From Phytoactinopolyspora mesophila (GTDB lineage: Bacteria > Actinomycetota > Actinomycetes > Jiangellales > Jiangellaceae), in the NCBI RefSeq assembly GCF_010122465.1, contig NZ_WLZY01000005.1, positions 431,010 to 495,009 of the forward strand: 64,000 nucleotides of DNA, written 5' to 3'. Below are positions 78 through 63,844 of the stretch, piece after piece; position 1 is the first letter of the stretch; every line of letters starts with the position of its first letter. Below the pieces are notes generated by a model. That model was not told where the DNA came from, ran no database searches, and saw only the letters and a program-made list of their open reading frames with translations. The position numbers were made by a program, and so were the translations under genes.

Positions 78-95
78 ACCCCACTGACGATCACC
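78..95. repeat. Truncated 3' arm of the GGTGATC-family palindrome
   Basis: The bases ACTGACGATCACC (83-95) are identical to the outer end of the 3' arm of the complete palindrome at 38553-38641. The rest of this copy is replaced by the poly-C tract. It is therefore read as the surviving edge of another member of the same dispersed repeat. Confidence 0.55.
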
Positions 96-6281: not shown

Positions 6282-6284
6282 AAG

Positions 6285-6410
6285 GCCGCGGCCGATGGGA
6301 CCTCTCCCCGGCCAGCAGACTCGGTCGGAGAGGGGCGTCGCCATAGACCTCCCTCGCTGATGCCCGCCACACCATGGAGAGGTCCCATCGCCCGCGGCCA
6401 TCGGCCGCGG
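6285..6410. repeat. Long inverted repeat, conserved-core family, copy 1
   Basis: The arm at 6285-6307 is complementary to 6376-6398 over 22 of 23 bases. The inner part carries CCAGCAGACTCG (6312-6323) and CTCGCTGATGCCCGCCAC (6353-6370), both found unchanged in the copy at 23224-23324. A second perfect hairpin, CCGCGGCC-ATC-GGCCGCGG, follows at 6392-6410. It sits between two convergent genes and could also work as a bidirectional terminator. Confidence 0.75.
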
Positions 6411-23223: not shown

Positions 23224-23324
23224 GGGGCCCCGGGAAATGGAGTCTCTCCTCGCCCAGCAGACTCGCTCGTGCCTCGCTCGCTGATGCCCGCCACGCCATG
23301 GAGAGACCCCATTTCCCGGGCCCC
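23224..23324. repeat. Long inverted repeat, conserved-core family, copy 2
   Basis: The arm 23224-23249 pairs with 23300-23324, with one mismatch and one bulge. The inner sequences CCAGCAGACTCG (23254-23265) and CTCGCTGATGCCCGCCAC (23277-23294) are identical to the copy at 6285-6410. The arms differ between the two copies yet remain self-complementary, so base-pairing rather than arm sequence is kept. It begins 13 bases after the yqgE-like stop and may also end its transcript. Confidence 0.75.
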
Positions 23325-36593: not shown

Positions 36594-38003
36594 TCAAGGA
36601 CCGACGGCCTGCGCCAGGGGGTCGGGTTTGCGGATCCGTCCGGCCGCCCACGCGCCGAACGCCGCGAGTGCCGCCATGAGGGCGAGGATCACCGCATAAA
36701 CCCAGACCGGCACTGATGTGCCCGAGCTCGGTGCCGCTCCGTGAGCCGAACCGAAGATGGTGCCGGCCAGGCCGACGAAGGTGATCGTGCCGAGGTTGTC
36801 ACACATCTGCAGGGCGGCCGAGTTCGAACCGTGGTCCTCCACGGGCGAGAGCTGGAAAAGGAGAACACTGAGGCTGGACATCGCCATCCCCATGCCGACG
36901 GCACCGAGAGCCCATGCCACGGCCGCGACCGGCGCCGGTACCGCTGGCAGCAGAACCAGGCCGAGCGCGGCGATCGCCGCCGAGACGATGCCGCTGCCGG
37001 TCTGCACGAGTACATGGCGTGGAACCGTGGTCCGCGGGCGGCCTTGATACCAGGAGCCGGCAGCCCAGCCGAGGGCGCCGCCGGTCAGCGACAGCCCGGC
37101 CAGAGTAGAGGAAAGCCCACGTTCGGCCACCAGCAGGAGCGGTAGGAACGCCTCCGCTCCGAAGAAGGCGCCGGCGAGGACACCCCGCATGATCACCACG
37201 GTCGGCAGGCCGCGCCGGAGCCGGAGCACGCCCGGTGGCAGGAGGCGTGGCACGGTGGGAACCAGTACCCCGAGGGCGGCGATGGCCAGGATCAGCGCCA
37301 GCAGGTCGGGACGGGTTCCGGCGTATTGCAGTACTGCCATAGCCAGCGCGGTCGCGGCGGCCAGCGGCAGCCGTCGTCGTCGTGTGACGGGTCCGGACGG
37401 CGGCGGCCCGTCGATCGCCCGTACCGACGGAAGGATCAACATGATCGGGATCATCACGAAGGGCGCGAGACCGAGAAAGACCCAACGCCACGACGCGTGG
37501 TCGGCCAGCATGCCGGCAACCAGCGGCCCGACGATCGACGGAACGACCCACGCCGCGGACAGTGCCGCGAAGATGCGCGGGCGAAGATTCTCCGAGTAGG
37601 ACCGCCCGACGGTGACGTACAGCGCAACGATGACGAGACCGCCACCGAGCCCTTGCGCGGCGCGCCCGGCGATGAACGGCCACATCGACTGCGCCGCGCC
37701 GGCCAGCACAAGCCCCACACTGAACGTGACGGCGCCGGCGACCACCGGCAACCGGGGCCCGCGCCGGTCACAGATCTCGCCGGAGAGAACCAGGCCGAAG
37801 AGGCTGGCGGTGAAGAAGCCGGAGAAAGCCAGTGCGTAGAGAGGGACGCCGTCGAGATCGGGTACGGCCTTGGGCATCGCGGTTGCCACGGCCATGGCCT
37901 CGAAGGCGATGAAGACCACGGTGGCGACGATGCCGATGGTCAGATTCCGATGGGCTGGACCGAGGATGCCGGCGTCTGTTGTCTCCACCGGCTTGGATGT
38001 CAC
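36594..38003 (-). CDS. MFS transporter
   Basis: A 469-residue major facilitator with a run of hydrophobic helices across its length. The conserved loop after helix 2 reads GLVLSGEICDRRGPRLPVVA, the motif A equivalent. It resembles drug:H+ antiporters of the DHA type, but the substrate is unknown. I place the start at GTG 38003, because a -10 box TACTAT lies six bases upstream, so the mRNA would begin at the start codon. The open frame extends 21 codons further into an inverted repeat. Confidence 0.83.
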   Translation of the reverse strand: MTSKPVETTDAGILGPAHRNLTIGIVATVVFIAFEAMAVATAMPKAVPDLDGVPLYALAFSGFFTASLFGLVLSGEICDRRGPRLPVVAGAVTFSVGLVLAGAAQSMWPFIAGRAAQGLGGGLVIVALYVTVGRSYSENLRPRIFAALSAAWVVPSIVGPLVAGMLADHASWRWVFLGLAPFVMIPIMLILPSVRAIDGPPPSGPVTRRRRLPLAAATALAMAVLQYAGTRPDLLALILAIAALGVLVPTVPRLLPPGVLRLRRGLPTVVIMRGVLAGAFFGAEAFLPLLLVAERGLSSTLAGLSLTGGALGWAAGSWYQGRPRTTVPRHVLVQTGSGIVSAAIAALGLVLLPAVPAPVAAVAWALGAVGMGMAMSSLSVLLFQLSPVEDHGSNSAALQMCDNLGTITFVGLAGTIFGSAHGAAPSSGTSVPVWVYAVILALMAALAAFGAWAAGRIRKPDPLAQAVGP

Positions 38004-38009
38004 CAGCCA

Positions 38010-38015
38010 ATAGTA
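38010..38015 (-). promoter_or_regulatory. -10 box of a leaderless promoter for the MFS gene
   Basis: Minus-strand TACTAT is followed by six bases (TGGCTG) and then the GTG start at 38003. Transcription would therefore begin on the start codon. No ribosome binding site is visible, which agrees with a leaderless mRNA. Confidence 0.5.
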
Positions 38016-38045
38016 GGGACGCTCATGTCTGCGGTCCAATCGAAT

Positions 38046-38117
38046 TGCATGGCACGCTGAGTACACGCTGCAACCGCGTTTTCGGGCCTTTTCAACGTGT
38101 ACTCAACGTGCCATGCA
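38046..38117. repeat. Near-perfect 22-bp inverted repeat between divergent genes
   Basis: The arms 38046-38067 and 38096-38117 are complementary at 21 of 22 positions, around a 28-base loop with CCGCGTTTTCGGGCCTTTTC. It lies between the divergent leaderless promoters of the MFS gene and the DUF3039 gene. The arms share no sequence with the other families in this window. It may be an operator, an RNA hairpin or a mobile palindrome. Confidence 0.7.
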
Positions 38118-38552: not shown

Positions 38553-38641
38553 GGTGATCGTCAGTACGTTGTGGCTGTTCCCCTGACCGATTCACACCAA
38601 TTTGCGCTGCCAGGAACAGCCACAACGTACTGACGATCACC
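38553..38641. repeat. Perfect 29-bp inverted repeat, GGTGATC family, complete copy
   Basis: Arms 38553-38581 and 38613-38641 are exactly complementary over 29 bases, around a 31-base loop. The arm begins GGTGATCGTCAGTACGTTGT. Related arms occur at 58523-58545, 63754-63777 and 63786-63808, and its outer end at 83-95. It lies in the 381-base gap between the DUF3039 gene and the next LacI gene; the remaining gap holds a short hairpin and operators. Confidence 0.85.
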
Positions 38642-38794: not shown

Positions 38795-38814
38795 TTGCTG
38801 ATACGAAACAGCAA
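38795..38814. promoter_or_regulatory. LacI-type operator adjoining the regulator gene
   Basis: TTGCTGATACGAAACAGCAA has arms TTGCTG/CAGCAA around ATACGAAA. It ends ten bases before the regulator's GTG and would block its own translation or transcription start, so autoregulation is likely. The two sites define GCTGnTACGAAnCAGC as the motif to look for elsewhere. Confidence 0.65.
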
Positions 38815-38824
38815 GGAGTCGAGG

Positions 38825-39880
38825 GTGACGATCAAGAGCCGCCAGCAAGCACCGACACAGAGTGACGTCGCACGGCGTGCTGGTGTATCGCAGGCGACTG
38901 TCTCGGCTGTCATCAACGGCCGAGCCGCAACCCACCGGATTCCGGACGAGACGGTGCGCCGGGTCCGTGAAGCCGTCCGCGACTTGGGTTACATGGCGAA
39001 CCCGGCGGCTCGCAGCCTCAAGGGAAAGCGCAACCGGCTGCTCGGCGTGCACACCTTCGAGTCGGTGTTCCCCATCAGTCAGCGCGACTTCTACCACGAG
39101 TTCTTGATCGGCATCGAGGAACAAGCCGTCGCCGATGGCTACGATCTCGTCCTGTTCACATCCACCGAGGAGTCGAACGGTCAGCGCAGGATCTACCGCG
39201 ACGGCATGAACCGCCTGAACGTCGCCGATGGCAGCGTGCTGCTCGGTTTCACCCAGGACCGCAGCGGCATCGCCAAGCTCGCGGCGGAGGGCTACCCGTT
39301 CGTCCACGTGGGCCGCCGCGACGTTCCCGGCGTGGAGTTCCGGTGGGTGGGTGCCGATTACAAGAGCACCACCAGCCAGATCGTGGAACAGCTCAACGCG
39401 CTCGGTCACCAGCGCATCGGCTACGTGGGGCTCGCCCAGCGTATGGAGGCCCTGATCGATCGCGAGGAGGGGTACCGCGCCGGCTGCGAAGCCGTGGGCC
39501 TGCCGGCGCTGCCGCTCCTCATGGCTCCCCAGCACCTCACCGTGGAGTGGTTCGACCACGCCCTGGCCAGCGGCATGACAGCTTTCATCGCCGAGGACGA
39601 GGGATATGCGAGGCGGATCGGCGAGTTCGCTCGCGAACGCCGGCTCACAATTCCCGACGACGTGTCTGTGGTTGTGCTCCGCGGTACCACGGACGGCCCG
39701 TCGCCCGAGCGCCCGTGGAGTTCTATGGGCATCCCGCGAAACGAAATGGGCCGGATGGCGGTCCGCATGCTGGTGGAGATCCTCGAACACCCCGAGGCGT
39801 CGCGTGACGATCACGTGTTGCTGCCGTGCACACCACCCGCAGACACAACCATGGCCGCCGTCCCAGGGAGGACCGCATGA
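38825..39880 (+). CDS. LacI family regulator of the GH16/GH3/sulfatase locus
   Basis: A 351-residue repressor with a LacI HTH (SDVARRAGVSQATVSAVING) and hinge (MANPAARSLKGKRNRLLGVH), followed by a sugar-binding-like effector domain (TSTEESNGQRRIYRDGMNRL and later VSVVVLRGTTDGPSPERPWS). I start it at GTG 38825, which has AAGGAG upstream; the frame extends to 38795 but that part is the operator. Its stop overlaps the FAD oxidoreductase start by four bases, so regulator and enzyme are cotranslated at the head of the locus. The effector is presumably a sugar derived from the glycan the locus handles. Confidence 0.88.
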   Translation: MTIKSRQQAPTQSDVARRAGVSQATVSAVINGRAATHRIPDETVRRVREAVRDLGYMANPAARSLKGKRNRLLGVHTFESVFPISQRDFYHEFLIGIEEQAVADGYDLVLFTSTEESNGQRRIYRDGMNRLNVADGSVLLGFTQDRSGIAKLAAEGYPFVHVGRRDVPGVEFRWVGADYKSTTSQIVEQLNALGHQRIGYVGLAQRMEALIDREEGYRAGCEAVGLPALPLLMAPQHLTVEWFDHALASGMTAFIAEDEGYARRIGEFARERRLTIPDDVSVVVLRGTTDGPSPERPWSSMGIPRNEMGRMAVRMLVEILEHPEASRDDHVLLPCTPPADTTMAAVPGRTA

Positions 39881-58522: not shown

Positions 58523-58545
58523 GGTGATCATCAGCGCATTGTCGC
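58523..58545. repeat. Single arm of the GGTGATC-family palindrome
   Basis: GGTGATCATCAGCGCATTGT followed by CGC matches the 5' arms at 38553 and 63786, with a few changes. No complementary 3' arm is found nearby, so this is a solo or decayed copy. It lies 24 bases after the putative anti-sigma gene. Confidence 0.6.
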
Positions 58546-59627: not shown

Positions 59628-59750
59628 CGGTGATCGTGAGCAGATATCTGTGCTTGTCCTCTGTGATCGTGAGCGGATCGCTGTCGCCAGAGCGACATAA
59701 ATCTGCTCACGATCACTGACGATGAGGGCGGATGCTGCTCACGATCACCG
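59628..59750. repeat. Compound nested palindrome, GGTGATCGTGAG subfamily
   Basis: Two left-hand arms, CGGTGATCGTGAGCAGAT (59628-59645) and GTGATCGTGAGCGGAT (59663-59678), face two right-hand arms, ATCTGCTCACGATCAC (59701-59716) and TGCTCACGATCACCG (59736-59750). Arm 1 pairs perfectly with both right arms. A TGTCGC/GCGACA hairpin sits in the middle. It fills the gap between coxM and coxG, and its last bases supply the coxM stop codon. Confidence 0.75.
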
Positions 59751-60602
59751 AGATGTTGCGGCAGCCTGCAGGGCACGGCGAGTGAGCACCGTCGCCAGGT
59801 GGGCTCTGTACTCAGCCGATGCCGATACATCGCCGGTGGGGGAGGTACCTTCACCTGCCCGTTCCGCGGCCGCTTGTAGCGCGCCCTGCTCCGCTGGTGC
59901 GCCGACCATGGCCTCTTCGACGGCGTGCGCCCGGATGGGGGTGGGGCCCATGTTGGTCAGCGCGACGCGTGCCTCGGCGATATCGCCGTTGGACCGGCGA
60001 ACCGCTGCCGCCACTCCGACCATGGCCCACGCTTGGGCCATTCGGTTGAACTTCTCGTAGTGCGTGCCCCACCCGGTGAGCTTCGGCACGCGCACCGACA
60101 CCAGCAGCTCGTCGGGCTCCATGGCGGTGGTGAGGTAGTCCACGAAGAACTCCGACGCCGGCACCGACCGGCGCCCCGACGGCCCCGCGACCTCGAACGA
60201 GGCATCGAGCGCGGATGCCACGCTGGGCAGATCGCCGGCCGGGTCGGCGTGCGCCAGCGAACCGCCGAAGGTGCCCAGGTGGCGGACCTGGCGGTCGGCG
60301 ACCGTGGCCGTGGCCTGAGCGATCAGCGGAGCGTGTTCCTGGACGAGAGAACTCTTCATGACGTCGTCATGGGTGGTCATAGCGCCGATGACGAGAGCAT
60401 CGCCGTCGTCGTGGATGCCACGCATCGCATCCACAGCGCCGAGGTCGACGAGAGTGGTGGGCACGGCGAAACGCAGCCTGAGCATCGGGATCAGGCTTTG
60501 CCCTCCGGCCAGGACCTTGGCGTCCTCGCCGCCGTCAGCGAGCGCCCGGACGGCGTCGTCGACACTTGTGGGCCGGGTGTAGTCGAATGCGGCCGGGATC
60601 AT
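59745..60602 (-). CDS. coxM: CO-dehydrogenase-like medium subunit, FAD-binding (CoxM)
   Basis: A 285-residue flavoprotein of the molybdenum hydroxylase family that passes electrons from the iron-sulfur subunit onward. It starts [20 protein letters not shown] and has the FAD motifs AGGQSLIPMLRLRFAVPT and TFGGSLAHADPAGDLPSVA. The ATG overlaps the coxL stop by four bases. The TGA stop falls inside the outer end (GGTGATCG) of the palindromic repeat at 59628-59750, so the C terminus (LQAAATSR) may have been set by insertion of that element. The length is close to normal, so function should be kept. Confidence 0.88.
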   Translation of the reverse strand: MIPAAFDYTRPTSVDDAVRALADGGEDAKVLAGGQSLIPMLRLRFAVPTTLVDLGAVDAMRGIHDDGDALVIGAMTTHDDVMKSSLVQEHAPLIAQATATVADRQVRHLGTFGGSLAHADPAGDLPSVASALDASFEVAGPSGRRSVPASEFFVDYLTTAMEPDELLVSVRVPKLTGWGTHYEKFNRMAQAWAMVGVAAAVRRSNGDIAEARVALTNMGPTPIRAHAVEEAMVGAPAEQGALQAAAERAGEGTSPTGDVSASAEYRAHLATVLTRRALQAAATSR

Positions 60603-63753: not shown

Positions 63754-63844
63754 CGGTGATCGACAGTGCGTTGTGGTCGCTGAGGGGTGATCATCAGGGC
63801 GTTGTGGTCGCGGGTTCACCACCACAACGCACTGTCGATCACCG
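63754..63844. repeat. GGTGATC-family palindrome with a duplicated left arm
   Basis: The arm 63754-63777 is exactly complementary to 63821-63844 over 24 bases. Between them lies a second, diverged left arm, GGTGATCATCAGGGCGTTGT (63786-63805), a direct repeat of the first. The flanks 63535-63753 and 63845-64000 hold no gene that I can recognise. Confidence 0.85.

Follow-up and report, generated by a model that had tools for sequence, protein, structure and literature searches.

A dispersed family of GGTGATC-ended palindromes in Phytoactinopolyspora mesophila and a bracketed AbiEi-nuclease gene as its candidate partner

Described repeat systems and the present elements

Bacterial genomes commonly contain short palindromic repeats. 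Insertion sequences of the IS200/IS605 group carry a single gene between two hairpin ends, with neither terminal inverted repeats nor a target-site duplication. In the REPIN/RAYT systems, as outlined in PMC3116915, a genome holds several families of high-copy extragenic palindromes, and every family has one partner gene located in the midst of its repeats. The REP tag is described in PMC3733652 as an unpaired GTAG or CGTC at one end of the palindrome; GTAG-type REPs are tied to RAYTs, whereas the CGTC-type repeats surveyed in that paper are stated to have apparently no dedicated transposase. Two further protein groups are relevant to the present work: AbiEi, which binds at a pair of 23-bp inverted repeats separated by 3 bp (PMC7319586), and the EDxHD (Vsr-like) homing endonucleases, of which I-Bth0305I forms a dimer on its target, nearly 60 bp in length (PMC3943268).

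The palindromes studied here, called GGTGATC elements in the following, and the further hairpin families described with them resemble REPIN/RAYT systems in that many extragenic inverted copies occur beside a dedicated gene. They differ in the size of the units (49, 88-90 or 120-124 bp), in the complete hairpin present on each side of the gene and in the partner itself, which is not a Y1 HUH enzyme: the RAYT/Y1 profile PF01797 had no match in the five genomes of the genus, and the control matched in 5 of 14 known genomes. Unlike those of REPs, the ends are paired (GGTGATC/GATCACC or TGATCA) and the GTAG/CGTC tag is absent. A single gene between two hairpins is also the arrangement of IS200/IS605, but the enzyme found here is unrelated, in a genus without a PF01797 match. 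In the predicted fold of its catalytic domain the partner protein resembles EDxHD homing endonucleases such as I-Bth0305I; unlike for these, no intron or intein was present in the loci read, and palindrome brackets and dispersed single palindromes were found instead. In its predicted two-domain DNA-binding fold it resembles AbiEi and Rv2827c, antitoxins of type IV toxin-antitoxin systems, from which it differs by a fused nuclease domain and, in the two loci that were closely read, by brackets that enclose no toxin gene. Two AbiEi repeats of 23 bp with a gap of 3 bp make 49 bp, the usual hairpin length of the second family. Among the papers listed for searches of the open-access literature, none was seen to link this AbiEi-nuclease protein family to palindromic repeats.

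Copies, anatomy and location of the elements

The window, i.e. the whole 64-kb stretch (64,000 nucleotides) of DNA that was analysed, had been credited in a first-pass annotation with five places sharing the same outer sequence, three of them with long perfect arms of 16-29 bases. These three are full elements (Table 1), and the lengths of their perfect arms were confirmed, with 24 nt read at 63754-63844 and 16 nt in the outer arms at 59628-59750 besides the longest ones at 38553-38641. The two remaining places did not qualify: 58523-58545 holds a lone unit and 78-95 an end fragment only. The element at 38553-38641 has as its neighbours a minus-strand gene for an MFS transporter (36594-38066) on one side and a plus-strand gene of LacI type (38795-39880) on the other. 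The FAD-binding (CO-dehydrogenase flavoprotein-like) gene at 59745-60602 on the minus strand takes its TGA stop codon from the right end of the 121-bp element. Single-stranded folding of the three full elements gave z = -10.6, -9.7 and -7.5. The motif GGTGATCNNCAG occurred nine times in the window as compared to 0.35 expected, a count reached in none of 100 shuffles; two of these matches (4456 and 17642) lie within called genes and look like chance.

Table 1. Coordinates of the elements in the window and of the partner gene elsewhere in the same genome
Feature	Position	Strand	Remarks
89-bp GGTGATC element, two-unit type	38553..38641	.	perfect 29-nt arms, 31-nt loop
121-bp GGTGATC element, A+B+A' type	59629..59749	.	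outer arms around inner hairpin, apex GTCGCCAGAGCGAC
89-bp GGTGATC element, three-unit type	63755..63843	.	direct second unit at 63786, inverted unit 63824-63843
Lone GGTGATC-family unit, partner arm absent	58523..58545	+	
End fragment GGTGATCGTCAG, 12 bp, beside poly-C tract	84..95	-	doubtful as element
AbiEi-nuclease partner gene	G000:C2:324064-325092		

The window's own genome (G000; 6.51 Mb, 27 contigs) was compared with four congeners (G001 to G004). For one protein of the window, the best named relatives include Saccharopolyspora, Amycolatopsis and Actinokineospora at about 70% identity, which would suggest a position in or near Pseudonocardiaceae. Across G000, GGTGATCNNCAGNRCRTTGT had 77 exact matches and its reversed control none. 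The loose end pattern GGTGATCN{46,76}GATCACC occurred at 144 places, a number raised by elements of 120-122 bp counted twice and by some pairs that arose by chance, with again no match for the reversed control; 72 distinct copies were read. The family is thus far from a handful of copies, and the initial description of dispersed, mostly intergenic palindromes that have spread within the genome was borne out. The same loose pattern was found at 97 places in G003 and at 0-52 in 58 other relatives searched. Among the 72 distinct copies, 51 were 89 bp and eight 88 bp long, with a few of 57-58, 90 and 115-122 bp, the usual size being 88-90 or 120-122 bp. The elements are made of units of about 31 bp in the orders A+B, B+A' or A+B+A'.

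Copies of equal length were at most 93% identical in pairwise comparison, and their flanks outside the borders were unrelated. Among the 51 copies that are 89 bp long, Watson-Crick pairs made up 82% of outer-arm cells as compared to at most 77.8% in 1000 shuffles that ignored the kinship of copies, and paired positions co-varied, as at columns 9/81, where T-A changes to A-T. For the inner unit no such pairing excess was seen (80.1%; shuffle maximum 81.7%, kinship again ignored). The exact arm matches had previously been taken as a sign of recent spread or strong selection; since the copies do not exceed 93% identity and have unrelated flanks, we attribute the perfect arms to co-variation and not to recent copying.

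The flanks of 59 elements were C-rich on the left side and G-rich on the right side, a pyrimidine/purine bias that was absent from 44 strong gene-end hairpins without an element. Target-site duplications were not found. Direct repeats of 4, 5, 6 or 8 bp were no more frequent in the flanks of 72 GGTGATC and 50 second-family copies than after re-pairing of these flanks. One copy of the 72 and one of the 50 had a 4-bp direct repeat at the borders, as compared to re-paired means of 1.07 and 0.91, and none of 5, 6 or 8 bp was present. Insertion into the loop of existing terminators was considered and rejected because flank complementarity was barely above that of re-paired flanks (2.48 versus 2.16, sd 0.17, largest of 500 shuffles 2.80) and ordinary gene-end hairpins were unbiased. 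A known RNA family as the identity of the elements was also rejected, the window and five loci having no Rfam match at gathering score. A 25-base pattern had no match in the genome-contig collection, from which G000 itself was possibly left out, and the 89-bp element had none in the plasmid collection.

A second family, with the ends TGATCATGAACA...TGTTCATGATCA, was found at 43 places in G000, 99 in G001, 34 in G002, 91 in G003 and none in G004, the control being zero. Its length was 49 bp in 51 of 54 sampled copies, and in its variable stem columns 86% of cells were paired as compared to at most 77% in shuffles that ignored kinship.

Both families are located mainly at gene ends. Mapping the copies against genes, as the first-pass annotation had proposed, and using a codon-usage gene caller written for this analysis, we found 69% of 51 GGTGATC elements within 50 bp of a called stop codon as compared to 22% of random intergenic positions in the same loci. 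Divergent regions held 8% of these elements and 26% of the random positions. For 17 elements of G003, the proportion within the same 50 bp of a stop codon was 76% versus 20%, and for 53 copies of the second family it was 91% (null 41%). Elements also supply stop codons: the TGA inside GG[TGA]TC was used by nine gene ends in the G000 set, and in 19 copies of the second family the first three bases are the stop codon of a gene.

Single hairpins are inserted cleanly, with empty sites in relatives. At one gene junction (X/Y), G001 and G002 have an ATGA overlap where G000 has an 89-bp element, whose TGA terminates the first gene. The third gene of this cluster reads in frame through a 90-bp element in G000, and its orthologues stop about there. 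A copy of the second family within a coding sequence of G001 and G002 forms a 51-bp in-frame insertion that is missing from G000 and G003; the two copies differ by one compensatory pair change.

The bracketed AbiEi-nuclease gene

The partner search was an all-against-all comparison of the open frames located no further than 1.5 kb from an element. One homologous gene sits between two GGTGATC elements in G000 (L211, L242) and in G003 (L225, L241), with the downstream element close behind its stop codon; the window itself holds no homologue of this gene. It was the sole sizeable gene between the brackets of L211 and L225, where no toxin gene was seen. The two loci had no other called gene in common at E 1e-15, and the partner genes occupy unrelated neighbourhoods.

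Hairpins of the second family bracket an AbiEi-nuclease homologue in G000 to G003; G004 lacks both. These bracketed genes, too, had no called neighbour in common at E 1e-15. Among 19 single copies of the second family, 16 had their nearest relatives in the copies from the partner locus of the same species, and the other three swapped G001 and G002; the partner-locus sets of these two genomes each hold one further copy from the same locus.

The congeners provided a comparison of presence and absence. The pattern GGTGATCN{72,76}GATCACC was found at 67 places in G003, 1 in G001, 2 in G002 and 6 in G004, and the class-A arm motif was present in none of the four. G003 carries its own diverged version of the GGTGATC family, so that matches in relatives do exist. 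The few places in G001, G002 and G004, judged by eye, look like chance with one exception: an 88-bp stretch between genes of G004, in which 17 of 24 arm bases match, is a probable decayed copy. Multi-copy GGTGATC hairpins and a GGTGATC-bracketed gene were both present in G000 and G003, and neither in G001, G002 and G004. Over both families, hairpins and bracketed gene agreed in 10 of 10 family-by-genome cells (p 0.005, the cells not being fully independent), which falls to 9 of 10 (p 7/210, calculated by hand) if the decayed copy of G004 is counted as presence.

Fourteen members of the protein family were compared with profile collections. AbiEi_4 of Pfam was matched by 12, DUF559 by six (best E 0.00077, below the curated cut-off) and MTES_1575 by three; the PADLOC AbiEi profile matched all 14 and NCBIfam none. 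The AlphaFold model of the partner protein had a pLDDT of 90. Residues 1-229 of this model aligned to AbiEi 6y8q (Z 11.3, rmsd 5.6, 190 aligned), and residues 232-338 to the catalytic domain of I-Bth0305I 3r3p (Z 13.2, rmsd 2.1, 97 aligned) and to Vsr 1cw0 (Z 10.7, rmsd 2.6, 101 aligned). A second subfamily, modelled at a pLDDT of 81, gave a Z of 12.7 to AbiEi 6y8q and of 9.4 and 7.8 to 3r3p and 1cw0 for its nuclease domain, part of which had a low pLDDT of 53-69. Four residues of the nuclease domain, E237, D268, E279 and H286, were invariant in the 14 sequences. The partner is therefore predicted from these models to be an AbiEi-like DNA-binding region fused to a Vsr/EDxHD-type endonuclease domain, with a putative nuclease activity.

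At E 1e-8, 110 of the 148 genomes searched in the class had homologues, as did 64 of the 81 genera covered. The bracket test compared upstream and downstream flanks by blastn with a threshold of 40 bits. It was passed by 14 of 22 homologues in a first set from the genus, where 8 of 30 loci had been dropped as overlapping, by 13 of 20 in a further set and by 19 of 29 class-wide, where one of 30 loci (L301) had no open frame. With the duplicates L269/L281, L254/L286 and L251/L291 each counted once and flank windows varying slightly among the three sets, 44 of 68 distinct genes were bracketed as compared to 4 of 204 control genes (Fisher p 1.5e-28); all four passing controls are flanked by GGTGATC elements on either side. 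The remaining 24 homologues were below the threshold, and the clade of L271, L279 and L282 had no bracket. Two passes of the first set were of another kind, L265 by a distant non-hairpin inverted repeat and L252 by tandem repeats, and 12 of 22 remain without them. L254 and L270 were scored as misses despite hairpins on both sides further out; the gene of L270, rescored as L340, reached 96 bits, and L339 (44.6 bits) is outside the pool. The bracketing hairpins were mostly gene-specific, many of them with a CTATAG-like apex. The homologue of L290 (G003:C7:68000-73500) is bracketed by a 192-bp inverted pair (285 bits) made of several TGATC-containing units in place of simple hairpins.

Outside the genus, the homologue WP_029540190.1 of Rhodococcus ruber NZ_CP145323.1, annotated as a hypothetical protein, is bracketed by hairpins as well. 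This 74-kb record has six hairpins of equal length, of which two bracket the homologue. Each of the six follows an annotated stop codon at a distance of no more than 50 bp, and four are situated between convergent genes. The record (L389-L391) is labelled plasmid pmega_4 and looks like a piece of chromosome, since it carries serS, glf, fadD32, pks13 and arabinosyltransferase genes. A protein search of the plasmid collection with the partner family returned one record, from R. ruber, and with the second subfamily protein nothing; the phage collection gave two partial matches. By tblastn, no homologue of the partner family was found in 80 named loci (1.63 Mb). A third family, defined by a bracket hairpin from another genus, was found in 3 of 15 genomes searched, with two places in each, so bracketing without amplification occurs. 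One of these places (G015:C1:7653516) lies between two convergent gene ends with no homologue within 2.5 kb.

Mobility, alternatives and wider meaning

The GGTGATC elements are probably short non-autonomous palindromic mobile elements with the bracketed AbiEi-nuclease as their partner in trans. The choice of this partner is strongly supported by its position and its co-occurrence with the hairpins, and the hairpins are likely moved by its product. The data point to short DNA hairpins that spread by an undescribed route. By analogy with AbiEi on inverted repeats, the AbiEi-like part may read both arms as one symmetric site. The nuclease domain would nick or cut the palindrome or its target, and repair or replication could then copy the hairpin into a new site, C-rich on the left and G-rich on the right. 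The hairpin-gene-hairpin unit would constitute the autonomous form, and copies would survive mainly right after stop codons, where the damage would be small and a stop codon or a terminator may be gained. On a larger scale, an AbiEi-type reader joined to an EDxHD/Vsr-type nuclease that copies its cognate palindrome, of 49 bp in the simplest families, into gene ends could represent a new class of mobile elements widespread in Actinomycetes, with families of up to about 100 or more hairpins per genome and co-divergence of reader and palindrome in each lineage; for this wider claim we see belief and doubt in even balance.

Since the promoters of AbiEi and Rv2827c contain 23-bp inverted repeats to which these proteins themselves bind (PMC7319586) and the hairpins concentrate at gene ends, the palindromes might also be binding sites and terminators. 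The AbiEi-like protein would then repress itself from the upstream copy, the downstream copy would terminate and the dispersed copies would have spread otherwise. We regard this as rather unlikely: an operator copy is not needed after the stop codon, yet both sides matched in nearly two thirds of the distinct genes (44/68), precise single-copy insertions occurred, one of them inside a coding sequence, and multi-copy families were present only where the bracketed gene was, in the five genomes compared. Selection for immobile transcription terminators would account for the closeness of the copies to stop codons (69% and 91% at 50 bp or less) and for the avoidance of divergent intergenic regions. 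This explanation is nevertheless highly improbable, as it is at odds with the 44 element-free gene-end hairpins, which lack the 5'-arm pyrimidine bias of the element flanks, with nearest copies that are up to 93% identical amid unrelated flanks, and with insertions beside empty sites of relatives.

The elements have defined ends and fixed lengths and are dispersed in discrete units, as would be expected of MITEs belonging to an ordinary insertion sequence with a DDE transposase and similar ends. The lack of a target-site duplication in 72 and 50 copies makes this very unlikely, as does the gene bracketed in both species, which is the AbiEi-nuclease; among the loci read, the unit carrying it was the only full-length one with GGTGATC ends. 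A RAYT/TnpA-REP transposase had been suggested as a partner at the outset, and REP/REPIN elements moved by such a Y1 tyrosine transposase are outwardly alike, being high-copy palindromes beside a partner gene (PMC3116915). With PF01797 silent in all five genus genomes and a Vsr-like predicted fold of the partner, RAYT was rejected for this role, and we consider its involvement close to negligible. The evidence agrees with the more general suggestion that an enzyme acts in trans; the class to which that enzyme would belong is one that had not been named.

If the AbiEi-nuclease does move the hairpins, a second, unrelated enzyme class would serve such repeats, and this life style would have arisen more than once. 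The large group of AbiEi/DUF559-like orphan proteins would gain a function, and AbiEi-like nucleases whose present annotation is hypothetical protein or antitoxin would be enzymes of a new class. The partners of orphan repeats could be found by seeking a gene that the repeats bracket, and the natural pairs of DNA reader and palindrome would be useful for studying DNA recognition. The findings also bear on the gain of stop codons and terminators at gene ends.

Several other hairpins and repeats were noticed alongside. In the window, a poly-G run followed by a poly-C run at 7-70 could form a long hairpin upstream of a gene at 287, which matches class I tRNA synthetases. At 38046-38117 lies a different dispersed palindrome, TGCATGGCACG...CGTGCCATGCA, of 72 bp with 22-nt arms; a DNA search found similar stretches of about 70 bp at twelve further places in the genome. 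Two long hairpins at 6284-6399 and 23225-23324 have their inner sequence in common (CCAGCAGACTCG ... CTCGCTGATGCCCGCCA) and are perhaps one more repeat family. In another genome of the class (G050:C1), a stretch of 82 bp with GGTGATC/GATCACC ends, identical as far as printed, occurs at five places in both orientations (near 1085493, 1258869, 1984686, 2297612 and 2780156). Long-armed hairpins of other sequence in G001 and G002, at L237 5594-5661 (18 nt perfect arms) and L238 5257-5328 (25 nt), are possibly further families of a similar kind.
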